Below, piece after piece: positions 11,809-18,386 of a stretch of DNA of 56,219 bases; position 1 is the first letter of the stretch; the number at the start of each line of letters is the position of its first letter. The stretch covers positions 1 through 56,219 of the forward strand of contig JAFTDE010000057.1 in NCBI GenBank assembly GCA_017454335.1, read 5' to 3'. The stretch is from Bacteroidales bacterium. GTDB taxonomy: Bacteria; Bacteroidota; Bacteroidia; Bacteroidales; UBA932. A program made the translations under genes and the position numbers. The notes beneath the pieces are model-generated. The model saw only the letters and a program-made list of their open reading frames with translations. It was not told the DNA's origin and ran no database searches.

Positions 11809-12795
11809 ATGAAATACCTGACTGATGAAAAACTTACCATTGTCGGCGCCGCCGGCATGATAGGTTCCAATATGGCCCAGATCGCCCTGACCCAGGGGCT
11901 GACCCCGAACATCTGCCTGTACGATGTGTACGAACCCGGTCTGCGCGGTGTCGCGCACGAGATTAACCACTGCGCTTTCGACGGGGCCAATGTCAGCTGG
12001 ACCACCGATCCGGAAGAGGCTTTCACCGGCGCCAAATACATTCTCTCGTCCGGTGGTGCTCCGCGAAAGGAAGGTATGACCCGTGAGGATCTGCTGCGGG
12101 GCAACTGTAAGATCGCCGAGGAATTCGGAAAGAATGTCAGGAAATACTGTCCGGATGTCAAGCATGTCGTCATCATCTTCAACCCGGCCGACCTGACCGG
12201 TCTGGTCGTGCTGCTGCACTCCGGCATCCGTCCCGAATGTGTCTCCACCCTGGCGGCCCTGGACTCCACCCGTTTCCAGGAGGCGATTGCCGCGACGGTG
12301 CATGTCCCGCAGTACAAGGTGACCGACGCGCACACCTACGGCGGACACGGCGAGGTGATGGCGGTGTTCGGCAGCCACGTGCGGGTTGACGGCCGTCCGC
12401 TCAGCGAGTTCAACATTTCGCCCGAACAGTGGGAGGAAATCAAGCGCCAGACGGTCCAGGGCGGTTCCAACATCATCAAACTCCGCGGACGCAGCTCGTT
12501 CCAGAGCCCGGCCCACCATTCGGTCCGGATGATCGCGGCGGCGATGGGCGGCGATCCGTTCACCCTGCCTGCCGGCCGCTACCTGAACAGTTGCGGATAC
12601 GAGCACGTGATGATGGCTATGCCGACCGTGATCGATTCCAAGGGCGTCCATTTCACCTGCCCGGTGGGAACGAAGGCCGAAAATGAGGCCCTGCATGCGT
12701 CCTACGAGCATCTCTGCGAGATGCGCGACGAAATCATCGAGCTGGGAATCATCCCCGAAATCAAGGACTGGCACAAACTCAACCCGAACCTCTAG
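11809..12795 (+). CDS. mdh: Malate dehydrogenase
   Basis: A 328-residue NAD-dependent dehydrogenase of the lactate/malate dehydrogenase superfamily, in the form common in Bacteroidales. It has a Rossmann start, TIVGAAGMIGSNMAQ (10-24), an Asp that would select NAD (CLYDVYEP), active-site-loop arginines (GAPRKEGMTRED), the substrate-binding Arg/Asp region LAALDSTRFQ and the catalytic His in TYGGHGEVMAVF. It interconverts malate and oxaloacetate in the cytoplasm, as part of the fumarate/succinate fermentation branch. Its last four bases overlap the stop of the convergent EnvC-like gene. Confidence 0.93.
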   Translation: MKYLTDEKLTIVGAAGMIGSNMAQIALTQGLTPNICLYDVYEPGLRGVAHEINHCAFDGANVSWTTDPEEAFTGAKYILSSGGAPRKEGMTREDLLRGNCKIAEEFGKNVRKYCPDVKHVVIIFNPADLTGLVVLLHSGIRPECVSTLAALDSTRFQEAIAATVHVPQYKVTDAHTYGGHGEVMAVFGSHVRVDGRPLSEFNISPEQWEEIKRQTVQGGSNIIKLRGRSSFQSPAHHSVRMIAAAMGGDPFTLPAGRYLNSCGYEHVMMAMPTVIDSKGVHFTCPVGTKAENEALHASYEHLCEMRDEIIELGIIPEIKDWHKLNPNL

Positions 12796-13979
12796 CGGAC
12801 CAGCCACTGTTCCGGGTCCTGGGGGTCGGTGTTTTTCCAGAGTTGGAAATGCAGCTGGGTCTCGCCGGAGATGGTGTCAATGCGGCCGAGCACTTGCCCG
12901 GTCGTTATTTTTTGTCCGGCCTTGACCGAGACCGAGGCGAGTTTGCAGTAGAAGGTGAAGTAGCTGCCGTGCTGGACCAGGACGCACTGGTTGTATCCGG
13001 GCATCACGACGATCTGCTTGACGACGCCGTCGAAGACGGCCCGGATCTCCGTGCCCTTGTCCACCGCCAGGTTGACGCCGTTGTTGAAAGGCAGCTTGAC
13101 ATTCTTGTACACGGGGTGGTTGTGCTGGCCGAAGCCTTCGACCACGACGCCCGCGGCGGGCCAGGGGAGTTTCCCCTTGTTGGCGGCGAATTCGTTCGCC
13201 AGCTTCGTGTCGATCTCCGTGCTGGTGGTCTTCCGGGTCGTGGTGGTCTTGCCCTTGCCCATAGCGTTGTTGATCATCTGCTGGATCTGCCGGTTCAGCG
13301 CGTCCACCTGCTTTTTCTTGGCATTCAGCTGGGACTGGTAGCGGGATTTGTTGGCGTTCAGCTGATTGACGAGTTTCTTCGAGGAAGCCTCTTCCTGCTG
13401 GAGCTTGGACAGTTCGGCCTGGTGTTCGGCGCGCAGGGCCCGGGCCTCGGCGCGGGTGGAATCCAGGCGGGCGCGGCGCTGCTCGAGTTCCGCGCGGGTT
13501 TCCTGGATGTGGCGCGCCTGGCTGTTCATCTGCGTGGACAGGCCGCGCAGGTAGGCGAAACGCCGGGTGGCCTGGTTGAGGTTGCGGCTGGCCAGGATGT
13601 ACATGTACCACACGCGGGCATCCCGGTTCTTGTAGGCGTTTTTGATCAGCCGGTTATAATATAAGGTCATCGTGTCCAGGCGCTCCTGGGCGCGGTTGAT
13701 CTCGTGCTGCATCGCGTGCAGCGAATCGTCCAGCACGCGGATCTCGCGGTCGCTGCGCTTGACCAGCTCGCGGCGCGCCTTGACCTGCCGCTGGACCAGG
13801 TTCAGCGAGGTCAGCGCATTGTTGCTCTTGGCGGTGTTTTCCTTGATCTGGGCCTCCAGGATGGCGATTTCCTTCTGCAGACGGTCGCGCTCGCCCTGCT
13901 GTTTGGAGACATCCTGCGCCGTGGCGGCCAGGCAGCCCAGCAGCATCAGGACGCTCAGTATGAAGGCGGAACGTTTCAT
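12792..13979 (-). CDS. EnvC-like murein hydrolase activator (coiled coil plus LytM/M23)
   Basis: A 395-residue periplasmic protein with a signal peptide (MKRSAFILSVLMLLGCLAATA), a long coiled coil at about 22-240, and a C-terminal M23/LytM domain at about 270-395 (FNNGVNLAVDKGTEIRAVFDG; LVQHGSYFTFY; ITTGQVLGRI). The first zinc ligand position reads NNGVN-L instead of H-G-x-D, so the domain is probably catalytically inactive, as in EnvC, which activates amidases at division. Its start overlaps the stop of the upstream TPR gene by four bases (ATGA), so the two are translationally coupled. Confidence 0.9.
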   Translation of the reverse strand: MKRSAFILSVLMLLGCLAATAQDVSKQQGERDRLQKEIAILEAQIKENTAKSNNALTSLNLVQRQVKARRELVKRSDREIRVLDDSLHAMQHEINRAQERLDTMTLYYNRLIKNAYKNRDARVWYMYILASRNLNQATRRFAYLRGLSTQMNSQARHIQETRAELEQRRARLDSTRAEARALRAEHQAELSKLQQEEASSKKLVNQLNANKSRYQSQLNAKKKQVDALNRQIQQMINNAMGKGKTTTTRKTTSTEIDTKLANEFAANKGKLPWPAAGVVVEGFGQHNHPVYKNVKLPFNNGVNLAVDKGTEIRAVFDGVVKQIVVMPGYNQCVLVQHGSYFTFYCKLASVSVKAGQKITTGQVLGRIDTISGETQLHFQLWKNTDPQDPEQWLVR

Positions 13980-15226
13980 TGCTTGCCGGACAGGTTGCGG
14001 GCCAGGCCCTCGTAATAGGTGGCGACGTCTTCTTCGCCCAGGGCGTGCAGGACCTGGGCGTAGTGGGCCAGCACGACGGCGCTCTCCCGGCCGCCGTAGA
14101 TCATGGCGTGCTTGAACACCGGCTTGGCCTCCTTGGAGCGTCCCAGCAGGTGCAGGATCCATCCGTAGGTGTCCAGGTAGGTCGCGTTGTCCGGCTCGGC
14201 TTCGACGGTCTTCTTGCTCATCTTCAGCGCCTTGCGCAGGTTTTTGACCTCCTGGCTGAGGTAGTATGCGTAGTTGTTCAGCACGGGCAGGTAGTCGGGC
14301 TGGATCTTCAGCGCCTTGTCGTAGGCCTTGAAAGCGTTGCGGGCGTCACCCATGGTGTAGTAGCTGTCGCCGATCAGGCTGTAGCTCTGCAGCAGGGCGG
14401 TGGTGTCGTGCGGGTCCAGGGCGATGATGTCCTGGCATTCGCGGATGACGGCGGGCCAGTCGGACAGGGTGATCTGAACCTGCAGGTTCAGGGTATGCGC
14501 GGCGCTGTTGTCCGGATGCGCCCGCAGCAGGCTCTGCATCAGGCCGGAGATTTCCGGGCCGAAATTCTCGAAGAACTGCGGCGGATACGATCCGAACAGG
14601 GCGTTGAAATAGCTGCATTTCGCTTCGGGAACCAGCTCCTGGTCCGCCGCGACGCTGTCCAGCAGGCGGAAGTATCCCGGCATGTCGCGCTGGCGGCGCA
14701 GCACGTCCGCCTTGCCCAACAGGGCGGGGGGATAGCCCGGCTCCATCTCAAGGGCCTGGTCATACCAGCCGGCGGCCTCGTCCAGGCGGTTCCGGGCGGC
14801 ATGGCTGTCCCCGAGGATCGTCAGGATATAGCTGTTGTGGTATTGCGAGGGGTACTTGCGCACCAGTTTTTCGTACAGCGGCGCAGCCCGGTCTTCGCGT
14901 CCGATCTGCATGTACAGCAGGGCCAGCGCATCCTGGTACCACTGGTTCGTGGTGTCCAGCTGGACGGCGCGCAGCAGGTGCGATTCCGCCTCGTCCGCCT
15001 GCCCCTCGGCGAAGAGCCAGGCGCCCAGGTAATAATGGGCTGCATCGTTGTCAGGGGCCGTTTCCAGCAGGGCCGTGAGCTTCTTGATGGCGGTCTGGCG
15101 GTCCCCCTGTTCGTGGTCTTTGACGGCATCGACCAGCACGCCGTCCACGGCCGGTTGCAGGATATCCTGCCCGGACGCGCAGATGCAGAGCAACAGGGAA
15201 ACGGCTAAAGCGAGGACCTTGTTCAT
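13976..15226 (-). CDS. Secreted TPR-repeat protein
   Basis: A 416-residue protein with a signal peptide (MNKVLALAVSLLLCICASGQ) and TPR-like helix pairs along its whole length. Clear units are AAHYYLGAWLFAEGQADEAE, ALLYMQIGREDRAAPLYEKL and DSYYTMGDARNAFKAYDKAL. TPR scaffolds mediate protein-protein contacts; here the partner may be the coupled EnvC-like protein in cell-wall remodelling at division. A perfect -7 box ends eight bases before the ATG, so the mRNA may have almost no leader. It is divergent from the ECF sigma gene. Confidence 0.88.
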   Translation of the reverse strand: MNKVLALAVSLLLCICASGQDILQPAVDGVLVDAVKDHEQGDRQTAIKKLTALLETAPDNDAAHYYLGAWLFAEGQADEAESHLLRAVQLDTTNQWYQDALALLYMQIGREDRAAPLYEKLVRKYPSQYHNSYILTILGDSHAARNRLDEAAGWYDQALEMEPGYPPALLGKADVLRRQRDMPGYFRLLDSVAADQELVPEAKCSYFNALFGSYPPQFFENFGPEISGLMQSLLRAHPDNSAAHTLNLQVQITLSDWPAVIRECQDIIALDPHDTTALLQSYSLIGDSYYTMGDARNAFKAYDKALKIQPDYLPVLNNYAYYLSQEVKNLRKALKMSKKTVEAEPDNATYLDTYGWILHLLGRSKEAKPVFKHAMIYGGRESAVVLAHYAQVLHALGEEDVATYYEGLARNLSGKQ

Positions 15227-15253: not shown

Positions 15254-15294
15254 AGAGAAATTTTGGCTATTTTCGTGCCATAATTGTAGTAACG

Positions 15295-15849
15295 ATGCAA
15301 CTTTTTGGAGAGAAGCGGCATCTTATTACTCGGGAAATGGATTGGATCGAAGGGGCCCGCAAGGGCGACCGGAAGTCGCAGAAAGCCATTTACGACCTGC
15401 TGTCCCGCAAGATGTTCGCCGTCTGCCTGCGTTACATGGGCGAGCGGGATGCTGCGGAAGACGTACTGCAGGATGGTTTTGTGACCCTTTTTTCCAAGCT
15501 GGACAGTTTCCACGGGGAGGGATCCTTCGAGGGCTGGGCCCGCAAGATCTTTGTCAATACTGCGCTGATGAGTCTTCGGAAGAAGGACGTGCTGAAGCAG
15601 AGTGAAGACGTGGACACCGCGTGGAACGTGCTGAGCGAAGATCCGACTCCCATTCAGAAAATAACCTATGATGAACTATTGGACTGCATCGCCGAACTGC
15701 CTCCGGGTTTCCGGACCGTGTTCAACATGTATGTAGTCGAAGGCTACTCCCACAAGGAGATCGCCGAAGAATTGGGAATATCCGAGACGACGTCACGCTC
15801 GCAGCTCCTCAGGGCGCGGGCGATGCTGCAGGGCAAGATCAAAAAGTAG
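15295..15849 (+). CDS. ECF-type RNA polymerase sigma factor
   Basis: A 184-residue group 4 sigma factor. Region 2 spans about 20-90 (AIYDLLSRKMFAVCLRYMG, AAEDVLQDGFVTLF, FEGWARKIFVNTAL). Region 4 spans about 125-180 (ELPPGFRTVFNMYVVEGYSH, IAEELGISETTSRSQLLRAR). An alternative start at 15337 (MDWIEGARKG) would drop 14 residues without touching region 2. The next gene, four bases downstream, encodes a fusion of a cytoplasmic N-terminus, a membrane helix and an outer-membrane barrel, so this sigma factor is probably held by that protein and released in response to the outer-membrane state. Confidence 0.93.
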   Translation: MQLFGEKRHLITREMDWIEGARKGDRKSQKAIYDLLSRKMFAVCLRYMGERDAAEDVLQDGFVTLFSKLDSFHGEGSFEGWARKIFVNTALMSLRKKDVLKQSEDVDTAWNVLSEDPTPIQKITYDELLDCIAELPPGFRTVFNMYVVEGYSHKEIAEELGISETTSRSQLLRARAMLQGKIKK

Positions 15850-15853
15850 TAAG

Positions 15854-17092
15854 ATGCGACACGAACAGAACGACAATTTTGACCTCCAGGTGAGGTCAAT
15901 GCTGCAGGACGCGGAGGTAAAGGTACCTTCGCGCGTCTGGCGTGCCGTATCGTCCAGGCTCGATGAGTCGGCCGTCGCGGCCGCCTCTCCGTGGGGCTGG
16001 GCCCGCTGGGCCGGCCTGGCGCTTGCCGTTGCGGGTGCGCTGGCCGCCGCCCTGCTGCTGCCCGGCACCTTCGACCGCCGTCCGGAGGCCCCGCTGGTGG
16101 CGGACAACACCGTCGTGACCGACACCCCGGCCGTCGTGTCTGATGCTCCGGCTGTCCAGTCCGAAGCTCCCGCTGTCATGCCCGACCCGATCGGGCATCC
16201 CGCGACCCAAAGGACCGTTCCCGCGCAGGAGGCCGTTCCTGTGACGGAAGGGACCGTTTCCATTCAAGAGGCGGTTCCTGTGACGGAAGGGACTCCCGAT
16301 CAAGTCGGGAGTGACGCCATTGCCACGAAGGACTCGGAGCGCAGCGACCGAGGGGAGTTTGAGGGGACTCTTCCCCTCAATGATAATCATGATGCGAATG
16401 TCGGCCGTCAGGCCGACCCCTTCGCCGTCATGGCGGCGGAAGACGCGCGCAAAGCCCGCCGGGCGCAGGTCTCCCTGGTCGCGCAGGGATCCTTCACCGG
16501 CAACCGCAGCGAAATCGGCGGCTTGCAGCTCAAACCTTTCTACGGCGCTTCCGGTACCGGATCCCCCAGCCAGATCGTCACGGAGAAATCGGCTTCCAAC
16601 TACGGCATTCCCGTCACCTTCGGTCTGGGCGCCCGCGTGCGTTTCGCGCCGCGCTGGTCCGTGGGATTCGGGCTCAACTACTCGCTGCTCAGCCGCAGTT
16701 TCACGGGCGAGTACCAGAATTTCTACGGTACGGTCAGCAACACCCAGCAGTACATCGGCGTTCCCGTCAACCTCTTCTTCGACATCCTCTCCACGGACGT
16801 CATCCGCTTCTATGCACAGGGCGGCGGATCCGCGGAATACTGCATCGCGAATAATTTCCGGCTGGACCGCGTCGAGACGCCGAAGCTGTTGAAGGAACCC
16901 GCCAGGGGCCTGCAGTTCTCCGCCGGCCTGGGCCTGGGCGTCGAGTTCATGCTGTCGCGCCGCCTGGGCGTTTACATCGATCCGGGTGTCCGCTACTACT
17001 TCCCGGGCCAGCAGCCCAAGAGCGTCCGGACCGACAATCCCCTGCTGGTCACCTTCGAGGCGGGTCTGCGCTTCGACCTCGGAAACAGATAA
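15854..17092 (+). CDS. Dual-membrane anti-sigma factor (Dma-type): cytoplasmic domain, TM helix, periplasmic linker, outer-membrane barrel
   Basis: A 412-residue protein with an unusual layout. A cytoplasmic helical N-terminus spans about 1-47 (LQVRSMLQDAEVKVPSRVW), with no signal peptide. One inner-membrane helix spans about 50-70, a low-complexity Pro/Ala/Val/Glu linker about 71-205, and an outer-membrane beta-barrel about 206-412, ending RFDLGNR. Barrel strands include YGIPVTFGLGARVRF and YIGVPVNLFFDI. The gene lies directly behind an ECF sigma gene. This layout matches dual-membrane-spanning anti-sigma factors (Dma) with their partner sigma factors (Das), described in Bacteroides thetaiotaomicron and linked there to vesiculation. 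The match to that family is by architecture and context, not by alignment. The linker is encoded by a run of palindromic DNA elements and a 13-residue tandem repeat. Confidence 0.82.
   Translation: MRHEQNDNFDLQVRSMLQDAEVKVPSRVWRAVSSRLDESAVAAASPWGWARWAGLALAVAGALAAALLLPGTFDRRPEAPLVADNTVVTDTPAVVSDAPAVQSEAPAVMPDPIGHPATQRTVPAQEAVPVTEGTVSIQEAVPVTEGTPDQVGSDAIATKDSERSDRGEFEGTLPLNDNHDANVGRQADPFAVMAAEDARKARRAQVSLVAQGSFTGNRSEIGGLQLKPFYGASGTGSPSQIVTEKSASNYGIPVTFGLGARVRFAPRWSVGFGLNYSLLSRSFTGEYQNFYGTVSNTQQYIGVPVNLFFDILSTDVIRFYAQGGGSAEYCIANNFRLDRVETPKLLKEPARGLQFSAGLGLGVEFMLSRRLGVYIDPGVRYYFPGQQPKSVRTDNPLLVTFEAGLRFDLGNR
16178..16198. repeat. Palindromic element PAL, copy 5 (inside anti-sigma linker)
   Basis: Core GCCCGACCCGATCGGGC with family flank GTCAT. 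It is translated on the plus strand as VMPDPIGHPA in the periplasmic linker. Confidence 0.85.
16235..16293 (+). repeat. Direct repeat of 20 bases, period 39
   Basis: GTTCCTGTGACGGAAGGGAC occurs identically at 16235-16254 and 16274-16293, 39 bases (13 codons) apart. It gives the repeated peptide QEAVPVTEGT in the linker. Each copy also contains the small inverted repeat TTCC-tgtgac-GGAA. Confidence 0.85.
16293..16311. repeat. Palindromic element PAL, copy 6 (inside anti-sigma linker, reversed)
   Basis: CTCCCGATCAAGTCGGGAG followed by TGACGCC, a family copy in the opposite orientation to copy 5 with both arms changed in step. It is translated as TPDQVGSDAI. Confidence 0.75.
16333..16417. repeat. 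Three further palindromes in the anti-sigma linker DNA
   Basis: CTCGG-agcgcagcga-CCGAG at 16333-16352, TTGAGGGG-actctt-CCCCTCAA at 16359-16380, and GTCGGCC-gtca-GGCCGAC at 16400-16417. They follow copies 5 and 6 directly, all within the linker coding region and all in frame. Confidence 0.8.
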
Positions 17093-17120
17093 TCCCGATA
17101 AGAAACATACAATTGTGGCA

Positions 17121-17162
17121 AAAGCCGGAATATTGTGGCAAACAATTTTCCGGCTTTTTCTT
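17121..17162 (+). terminator. Intrinsic terminator of the sigma/anti-sigma operon
   Basis: AAAGCCGGAA, a 17-base loop, TTCCGGCTTT, then TTCTTTT. It closes the operon 28 bases after the stop and precedes the next lipoprotein gene. Confidence 0.8.
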
Positions 17163-17192
17163 TTATGCTTTGCTTTGCGGAAAAAAAACGCA

Positions 17193-18386
17193 ATGAAAAG
17201 GATTCGACTGTTGGAGCTGCTGCTCCTGTTGCTGCCGGTGGTGGCGTGTGATGTGTTGGAAAGCGGGCGGCTGACGGGCCGGCCCGGCAAGGGGGTGGAC
17301 ATCCCCGGGGAGGTTCCGGAAACCGGTTCTCGTTTCGATACCTGCGTGTTCGTCTCCGCCGTCCGGGTATCGGGCGGATATGACTGGCGCCGGGATGTCG
17401 GCTTCGAGGCGTCCGCCTGTTCGGTGGTCCTGTACCGGGATTTCGAAGTGGTGCTGACCCTGCCCGCGGACGGGGAGATCAGTCCGGATCCGGACATGCA
17501 CCACATCCTGGACGGGCACCTCTATACGGAGTATGCCGCCTGGAACGAGACGGTTGTCCGGCGGGACGGCCAGCTGGTCGCCCGCTGGGCGGGGCGGGAG
17601 CGGCTGTGCGGGCTGTGGGCGGAGGGAGATGCGGTCTATACCCTGGGCCAGAACCGTTCCGGCGAGGGATTCTCGCTCCGCCGCAACGGGGCCGTGCTGT
17701 TCAGCCGGAACTCCGGCCAGGTGGTCGGCAGCCTCTCGGATGCCTCGTTCCCGCGGACGGGCGCGCTGTGCCGGGATGCCGGGGACTTCTGCTTTTTCTT
17801 TACGGACGGGCCCGCGCACGCGCGTACCCTGCATCTGGTGCGGGGCGACCGTGCGCAGCAGCTGGGAACGGTCCCGATCGGCAGCAGCCTGGTGGATGCC
17901 AGGATCGTGGACGGCCGGGTATACAGCCTGGCCCTGGCTTCCGGCCGCGCCGACCTGTGCGTGGACGGGCTGCACGGTGACGAAGGAAACAGCCCCGGGC
18001 TCAGTTGGACGGATGCCCGCATCTTCCCGGAACCCGGCGGGGTGGCCTTGGCGGGGCAGTATGTGCTGGACGGGGAGGCTGGCAGCGGCGTGCTGCACCG
18101 GGACGGCCGGCTGGAACGCAAGGGCGGGCCGGACTGTGTCATCTACGGGGACGGGACGTCTTTTTCGGCGCTGGATATCTCCCGGTCGACGGGCATCGGG
18201 GCGCTCTTTTACTTCTTTCACGGCGGCTGCGCGACCTATTTCGACAGCCGGCTGTATGCGGCGCTCTCGCCGCGCAACCCTTCGGAGGCGGCGATGGTGT
18301 CCTGCGGCGCCCAGGTGCAGCGCCTGGACCTGGACGGGTATCTGACGGGAATTGCGGTCTCAGTCGTCCCAGCTGAGCAGCCTTGA
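17193..18386 (+). CDS. Hypothetical lipoprotein with propeller-like repeats
   Basis: A 397-residue protein of unrecognised family. It has a lipoprotein signal, MKRIRLLELLLLLLPVVAC, with Cys19 as the probable lipidated residue. The rest is rich in short beta-strand units ending in Gly/Asp turns (LYTEYAAWNETVVRRDGQLV; GFSLRRNGAVLFSRNSGQVV), suggesting a beta-propeller-like fold. The start is the first ATG before the signal peptide and follows the terminator hairpin by about 30 bases. Its last 27 bases overlap the convergent tsaE gene. No function can be assigned. Confidence 0.7.
   Translation: MKRIRLLELLLLLLPVVACDVLESGRLTGRPGKGVDIPGEVPETGSRFDTCVFVSAVRVSGGYDWRRDVGFEASACSVVLYRDFEVVLTLPADGEISPDPDMHHILDGHLYTEYAAWNETVVRRDGQLVARWAGRERLCGLWAEGDAVYTLGQNRSGEGFSLRRNGAVLFSRNSGQVVGSLSDASFPRTGALCRDAGDFCFFFTDGPAHARTLHLVRGDRAQQLGTVPIGSSLVDARIVDGRVYSLALASGRADLCVDGLHGDEGNSPGLSWTDARIFPEPGGVALAGQYVLDGEAGSGVLHRDGRLERKGGPDCVIYGDGTSFSALDISRSTGIGALFYFFHGGCATYFDSRLYAALSPRNPSEAAMVSCGAQVQRLDLDGYLTGIAVSVVPAEQP

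Follow-up and report, generated by a model that had tools for sequence, protein, structure and literature searches.

How could the state of the outer membrane be made known to a transcription factor in the cytoplasm, and to what end would a cell use such information? The question is raised by a locus on contig JAFTDE010000057.1 of a Bacteroidales bacterium (assembly GCA_017454335.1, positions 1 to 56,219 of the forward strand; this whole stretch of 56,219 nucleotides is called the window below), where a gene for an extracytoplasmic function (ECF) sigma factor directly precedes a gene for a protein that seems to begin in the cytoplasm and to end in the outer membrane. As judged from architecture, linkage and phylum, the two form a pair of the Dma/Das type. 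To a preliminary description of this DNA, made from the letters alone, our analysis adds a promoter-like motif at the start of the sigma gene and a small RNA (sRNA) element that shares this motif. We consider it probable, at roughly 0.62, that the locus is a switch of the Dma/Das kind and governs an sRNA by which fatty-acid synthesis is repressed. The pair and the predicted parts of the partner protein are as follows.

15295..15849, plus strand: ECF sigma factor gene, 184 aa from the first ATG, or 170 aa from an alternative ATG at 15337; PF04542 and PF08281.
15854..17092, plus strand: predicted Dma-type anti-sigma factor gene, 412 aa, assigned by Pfam, AlphaFold2, conservation profile and adjacency to the sigma gene.
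15854..15991, plus strand: residues 1-46, predicted cytoplasmic sigma-binding region with helices 4-18 and 26-42 and a conserved pattern.
15992..16054, plus strand: residues 47-67, predicted single transmembrane helix (AlphaFold2 helix of low confidence; hydrophobic segment).
16055..16417, plus strand: residues 68-188, predicted disordered periplasmic tether, net charge -14 (low pLDDT, low identity).
16466..17077, plus strand: residues 205-408, predicted outer-membrane beta-barrel with eight long strands (PF13568; AlphaFold2).

The sigma factor and its predicted dual-membrane partner

Both reading frames lie where the preliminary description had put them (15295-15849 and 15854-17092), with a gap of 4 nt. 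The sigma protein matches region 2 (PF04542) at 49.4 bits against a cut-off of 24 and region 4 (PF08281) at 66.5 bits against a cut-off of 25.7; it also scores 86.2 with TIGR02985 (Sig70_bacteroi1), under that model's cut-off of 126.4, and its identity across the 28 other same-genus loci is 54-80%. The partner matches PF13568 (OMP_b-brl_2) at 39.3 bits (cut-off 27), as do all 36 sequences of the Dma-type protein alignment. Pfam and NCBIfam scans recognised no anti-sigma domain in it, and a PDB sequence search returned no convincing match.

Modelled with AlphaFold2 from this 36-sequence alignment, the protein of the window reaches a mean pLDDT of 71.5 and a pTM of 0.55. Helices 4-18 and 26-42 are predicted in ten-residue blocks at pLDDT 64-80 and are followed by a helix at 47-67; most of residues 68-181 falls below pLDDT 50, and eight long strands then occupy residues 205-408. 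There the pLDDT is 88-98 in blocks 241-410 and 75-85 in the first strand, and a weak loop lies at 221-240. In every one of the 36 sequences, 41 to 69 residues stand ahead of the most hydrophobic segment. Averaged over sequence pairs, identity amounts to 0.43 in residues 9-37, 0.16 in the linker and 0.40 in the barrel, so that the N-terminus, with its pattern F-D-x3-R-S-x-L ... V-P-x2-V-W, is conserved like a domain. Such conservation would be unusual for a signal peptide, and we infer that Dma carries no cleavable signal and that its residues 1-46 would bind the sigma factor. The tether measures 99-149 aa among these sequences, and one of 121 residues has a contour length of about 44 nm, which is long enough to span a periplasm.

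The architecture first described thus emerges in large part intact. A dual-membrane design for the sigma factor's 412-residue partner is borne out by Pfam, the 36-sequence profile, AlphaFold2 and gene adjacency. The proposed segment of about 47 residues before one membrane helix agrees with the two modelled helices and the low-confidence helix that follows them, and the structure prediction of the partner alone, which had been suggested as a check, returned the outer-membrane barrel. The linker does appear disordered, and its length comes to about 120 residues rather than about 135. The likeness seen to the Dma/Das pairs of Bacteroides thetaiotaomicron also agrees with the domain plan given in the accessible part of PMC13088901, namely an N-terminal sigma-binding region, one transmembrane helix, a long disordered tether and a C-terminal barrel. 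Sequence and model together make the dual-membrane anti-sigma design well supported; Dma might, by way of it, report barrel occupancy or outer-membrane stress.

The sigma profile alone was used to fetch a wider set of named loci, the best 80 of 576, which come partly from the same genomes as our same-genus set. A related barrel protein stands beside the sigma gene in 79 of these 80, and the remaining locus has 96 bases to the end of its contig. This is more than chance would give, and the 79/80 adjacency suggests that sigma and Dma are cognate. The titles of 79 of the loci read Bacteroidales, Bacteroidia, Prevotellaceae, Ca. Cryptobacteroides or Ca. Cacconaster; many of the named relatives of the sigma factor are from animal guts and several are Ca. 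Cryptobacteroides. The eightieth (L248, CAMNGY010000257.1), a 3.9-kb contig titled uncultured Treponema, has a sigma gene of 63% identity with the same promoter motif and is probably a binning error. The preliminary description had spoken of a distant high-GC lineage. The GC content is indeed high (0.56-0.66); the relatives are Bacteroidales, the order of Bacteroides itself, and the pair therefore falls inside the known range of Dma proteins rather than at a distance from it. Elsewhere in the same genome (G000, a 2.16-Mb incomplete assembly) there is a second pair composed of an ECF sigma factor and a membrane-helix-plus-barrel protein (G000:C10:15914-17319, L128:2112-3323), a side observation that hints at a second Dma-like system with another promoter.

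A promoter-like motif and a candidate small RNA

Two further features carry the argument from the pair to its possible output.

15296..15323, plus strand: TGCAAC-N16-GCATCT, a motif of the ECF promoter type that spans the first ATG of the sigma gene and may serve autoregulation.
G000:C44:37457-37521, outside the window: candidate sRNA of about 65 nt, preceded by the motif and composed of the 21-nt block AGGUUUAGGUUUUAGUACACG and a hairpin.

The elements AAC and CATC some 17 bases apart are a form of ECF promoter, and ECF factors usually autoregulate. With a pattern in which most letters were fixed and the spacer was left free from 12 to 20, TG(C/A)AAC-N16-GCATC(T/C) was found in all 29 same-genus sigma loci (L035 and L004 were left out of this count), with a spacer of 16 every time. 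When a spacer of 15-17 was allowed, 79 of the 80 named loci proved to have the motif at the sigma start or a short way upstream of it, the exception (L288) reading TGTAAC. The genome-wide search for a shared ECF promoter motif that had been proposed earlier was also productive: the exact motif occurs at 101 sites in 61 same-genus genomes, 51 of which carry it, against 3 sites for the reversed pattern, and the genome of the window has six sites with up to one mismatch. Recognition of this motif by the sigma factor of the window is what these distributions suggest. Slightly upstream of it, at 15267-15275, lies a block like CTATTTTCG that is common to several close relatives and could serve the sigma gene as a house-keeping promoter.

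Because the promoter-like motif covers its first ATG, the true start of the sigma gene is uncertain. The sigma frames of the relatives have an apparent common N-terminal peptide, MQLF..K.HL, whose third residue is encoded by the DNA motif as L, H or R. We rejected this peptide as the main cause of the conservation, since the motif persists where the frame to sigma is broken (no open frame joins the two in 4 of the 29 same-genus and 23 of the 79 named loci). Start codons were counted in the named loci with another anchor and a looser first half of the motif, which misses it in L247 and leaves 79 loci. The promoter covers the only ATG, GTG or TTG before region 2 in 33 of them, where the peptide may be translated for want of another start; in 23 a second start lies downstream of the covered one, in 22 the start is only downstream, and in one neither was found. 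In the 33 loci with no start between promoter and region 2, a sigma-driven transcript should yield Dma and not full sigma, which suggests a negative feedback. The window itself retains the second ATG at 15337 and could make both proteins.

The fetched loci hold 97 distinct motif sites, 41 before the sigma gene and 56 not. Thirty of these 56 lead straight into a block, AGGTTTAGGTTTTAGTACACG, followed by a hairpin and mostly by a T-rich tail; 21 columns of the block are invariant in 30/30 loci, 11 of these bases having been required by the search. Searched alone in 200 genomes with up to 2 mismatches, the block was found in 94 of 121 same-genus genomes and in none of 79 genomes of other genera, the reversed pattern giving 0. 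Of the 96 block sites 30 were fetched, and the exact motif stands just upstream in 29 and with one mismatch in the remaining one. The block starts 7-8 bases past the -10 element in 52/52 distinct loci, some of them found through the motif, and given this constant offset the block should be the 5' end of an RNA, beginning with AGGUUUAGG. Against mononucleotide shuffles the hairpin half has z < -2 in 46 of 47 cases (mean z -4.3), and all 47 stem-loops differ in sequence. No consensus pair emerged when RNAalifold was run on the MAFFT alignment, and the hairpins were judged singly; four of the loci gave no Rfam match at gathering score. The element, as read from the sequence, has its own promoter, a conserved 5' pairing region and an intrinsic terminator, and contains no reading frame, features from which its transcription as an sRNA may be expected.

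Across 37 genomes, with the pair counted as the 29 loci L006-L034, pair and RNA occur together in 25, the pair only in 4, the RNA only in 3 and neither in 5 (p 0.012). The RNA is present in 10 of 11 genomes that are at least 90% complete and have the pair, and two such genomes without the pair are also without the RNA. In the genome of the window the RNA lies between a gene that reads, by eye, like pth and a Peptidase_M6 gene. The latter (G000:C44:37578-38948; L036:1657-3027, clipped at the locus end), directly downstream of the sRNA, would encode a secreted M6-type metalloprotease.

Besides the sRNA, no target of the motif recurs widely. Of 54 open reading frames (ORFs) after non-sigma motif sites, 19 form one blastp cluster, whose member in the genome of the window matches Peptidase_M6. 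Pfam was run on 28 of the 54, picked by eye; the rest were 15 members of the M6 cluster and 11 ORFs that were short or doubtful. These 28 included one OmpH-like, two PagL-like, one barrel, four VWA-domain and four Peptidase_M6 products, which fit an envelope regulon, together with one Hsp90, two histidyl-tRNA synthetases and others. A copy of the motif with one mismatch also lies between divergent secreted-protein and lipoprotein-like genes (G000:C22:2423-2450, L039), a possible further member of the regulon.

Complementarity to acpP and the competing readings

The candidate target is acpP, the gene for acyl carrier protein. The best-scoring 30 same-genus acpP loci of 46 genomes were taken, and since one (L195) had no leader sequence, 29 were scored. 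Their mean duplex energy with the block is -13.06 kcal/mol; 400 permuted blocks average -8.0 and none is as good, nor is any of 1500 dinucleotide-shuffled blocks (mean -8.9, best -12.2). For 29 acpP leaders of other Bacteroidales genera, drawn from 70 genomes (L298 was set aside as same-genus, and 28 of the 29 genomes were block-negative in their own search), the mean is -8.31 and 150 of 400 permuted blocks are as good; the two sets differ with p 2e-8. The sites have a median position of -31 to -10 from the AUG, and block bases 2-18 each pair in 17 to 28 of the 29 leaders. No pairing signal was obtained with the TPR, sigma, M23 and Dma leaders (of the 400 permuted blocks, 360, 399, 233 and 355, respectively, did equally well). 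Within the genome of the window, the acpP leader ranks second among 352 leaders, behind that of a gene looking by eye like a xylanase-esterase; the sample drew on the window and on 20 stretches totalling 0.40 Mb, some 18% of the genome, with gene starts set mechanically, and contig C35 was put in on account of its acpP gene. Repression of acpP by the block is what this complementarity would predict.

We therefore propose a mechanism of the following kind. The ECF sigma factor would be kept at the inner membrane by the N-terminal helices of Dma, which a disordered tether would join to the outer-membrane barrel, and a change at the barrel or in the envelope would release the sigma factor. Once free, it would recognise TG(C/A)AAC-N15/16-GCATCT and transcribe its own operon from the promoter that overlaps or adjoins the sigma start codon; in 33 of 79 relatives this would supply Dma but not full sigma and so act as a negative feedback. 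It would also transcribe the sRNA of about 65 nt, whose nearly invariant 21-nt 5' block would base-pair in the leader of the acpP mRNA, immediately before the start codon; less acyl carrier protein would then be synthesised, and hence the lipid supply lowered, when the envelope is disturbed. On present evidence, pair and sRNA would work as an envelope response of the sigma-E type, with a small RNA as one arm. A bolder version, in which the barrel directly controls lipid supply, the released sigma acting through a genus-specific 65-nt RNA that shuts acpP translation and the start-codon promoter favouring the anti-sigma factor as a brake, we put forward tentatively and at somewhat less than even odds.

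Several considerations weigh against this proposal. Every step from DNA to function, be it sigma binding, motif recognition, transcription or repression, is a prediction. The genomes compared are related and thus not independent; the assemblies are incomplete (that of the window is 78.8% complete), which bears on the mismatches between pair and RNA, three of the 37 genomes having the RNA without a strong Dma match and four the reverse; and the choice of best-scoring acpP loci favours close relatives. The membrane helix of Dma was modelled at a pLDDT of only 50-57. A stop-read-through fusion of a relative's pair (L013, run on an alignment of fused rows and sigma rows) has its N-terminal helices in blocks of pLDDT 66-87 and a pTM of 0.64, and is a model without contacts. 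The RNA of the genome itself, taken alone, folds no better than its dinucleotide shuffles (z -1.5). As to the target, a search of the genome for the complement of the block gave 3 matches, one being the RNA itself and one the acpP leader, against 9 for the reversed control; no start codon was seen downstream of the match on contig C1. With matches below the control, the case for acpP rests on conservation. Here too there are blemishes: within the genus, pairing is only slightly better in the 19 RNA-bearing genomes (-13.4) than in the 10 where the RNA was not found (-12.4; p 0.065), and two genomes with the RNA, G063 (-3.8) and G067 (-9.1), have no site in the acpP leader.

The match count below the control, the slight difference between genomes with and without the RNA and the two genomes that have no leader site, along with the relatedness of the genomes, lend themselves to a more modest explanation: that we are dealing with an ordinary Dma/Das system, that the 21-nt element is an sRNA of the same regulon, and that acpP is not its target, the complementarity having arisen by chance and been inherited from an ancestral leader. 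Such inheritance sits poorly with leaders that have diverged and with sites whose distances from the AUG vary, and chance sits poorly with the 1500 shuffled blocks and with the lack of signal in other genera; we regard this explanation as unlikely.

It is also conceivable that a different sigma factor reads the motif and that the sigma gene of the window is merely one of its targets in a cascade. Apart from the sigma gene of the window, the genome does have four sigma region 4 matches, one of them within the sigma-barrel pair on contig C10; but the motif is tied to the sigma gene studied here in 79 of 80 loci, none of the six motif sites of the genome lies on C10, and autoregulation is the general rule for ECF factors. 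We find such a cascade rather improbable. Another view would see in the block and hairpin a 5' leader or attenuator that belongs to the gene next to them, in many cases the one for the secreted M6 metalloprotease, given that 19 of the 30 block-bearing motif sites precede ORFs of the one blastp cluster, 31-159 nt downstream, the cluster to which the genome's own Peptidase_M6 match belongs. The other 11 sites are not followed by that cluster, however, the T-rich tail of the hairpin is what one expects of a terminator, and the block is complementary to acpP leaders located elsewhere, all of which makes a leader function distinctly improbable. Finally, that the partner is no anti-sigma factor and stands as an outer-membrane barrel with a long signal-anchor beside the sigma gene by an accident of operon structure, as the want of a recognised anti-sigma domain and of contacts in the fusion model might suggest, is very improbable in view of an N-terminal region that forms two helices and is conserved like the barrel, the 79/80 linkage, and a similar pair of Phocaeicola vulgatus that, in the accessible part of PMC9308784, behaves as sigma and anti-sigma.

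Gene surroundings, known systems and significance

The pair is flanked by the following features.

13976..15226, minus strand: divergent gene for a secreted TPR protein (TPR families), beside the sigma gene in 78/80 loci.
12792..13979, minus strand: Peptidase_M23 (EnvC-like) gene, downstream of the TPR gene; PF01551 at 72.8 bits, present in 77/80 loci.
17117..17165, plus strand: intrinsic terminator of the sigma-dma operon, a hairpin with a T-rich run after it; the stretch 17112-17168 folds at -22 kcal/mol (z -5.0).

The divergent TPR and EnvC-like genes of the preliminary description were both recovered, and their arrangement is a trait of the group; its persistence beside sigma and Dma hints at a functional tie to cell-wall splitting. 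The pair's own terminator was likewise found by its hairpin, although a simple terminator scan did not list it. On its 3' side, at 17193-18386, lies a lipoprotein-like gene that matched no Pfam family.

The enterobacterial sRNAs RybB, MicA and MicL, which reportedly depend on sigma-E, an ECF factor of envelope stress that drives such short RNAs, offer a parallel in mechanism. A conserved part of each pairs with the leaders of envelope-related mRNAs, and each ends in an intrinsic terminator. The predicted target here is acpP, unlike the porins or Lpp of those RNAs, and we claim no sequence relation to them. Bacteroidota reportedly lack Hfq.

Dma proteins form a recent class, and according to the portion of PMC13088901 available to us their signals and direct regulons are for the most part open; in Bacteroides thetaiotaomicron, the same portion states, Dma1 acts through nigD1, and Dma2 alters the expression of polysaccharide utilization loci (PULs) and vesicle cargo. 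Our pair resembles Dma1/Das1 and Dma2/Das2 in its adjacent ECF sigma gene, its domain plan and its phylum, Bacteroidota, a likeness of architecture drawn from that partial text; it differs in adjoining TPR-M23 genes and in a predicted output that includes an sRNA and a promoter motif. M0N98_03760-61 of Phocaeicola vulgatus and EcfO with its anti-sigma factor in B. fragilis are similar in that a large anti-sigma factor is predicted to span the periplasm and to end in an outer-membrane barrel, and the P. vulgatus sigma gene is induced by an envelope-active antibacterial protein; unlike what we propose, their regulon involves O-antigen length and NigD proteins, and the accessible part of the source mentions no small RNA (PMC9308784). 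Rfp18 of Flavobacterium psychrophilum is also a small RNA of the Bacteroidota that is conserved in its genus and linked to metalloproteases; it forms a strong fold and targets protease mRNAs in trans, unlike the present element, whose 5' end is predicted to be unpaired and which is no more than a neighbour of an M6 gene, and no ECF control of it is mentioned in the part available (PMC9723704). The accessible parts of PMC13088901, PMC9308784, PMC9723704 and PMC12596196 contain no small RNA tied to a Dma/Das system, and a literature search whose coverage left out most subscription journals yielded no paper on an sRNA and acpP, or on an sRNA in Cryptobacteroides.

The sigma/Dma pair is a new member of the known Dma/Das pairs, and the predicted sRNA arm would set it apart as a variant. 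If our reading is true, a Dma/Das system would have an sRNA arm, an sRNA would act on acyl carrier protein, and the state of the outer membrane would be linked to fatty-acid synthesis. Comparative genomics provides a sharp promoter motif, a candidate regulon and an sRNA with a testable target, and the function of the dual-membrane anti-sigma factor becomes a question for direct experiment.

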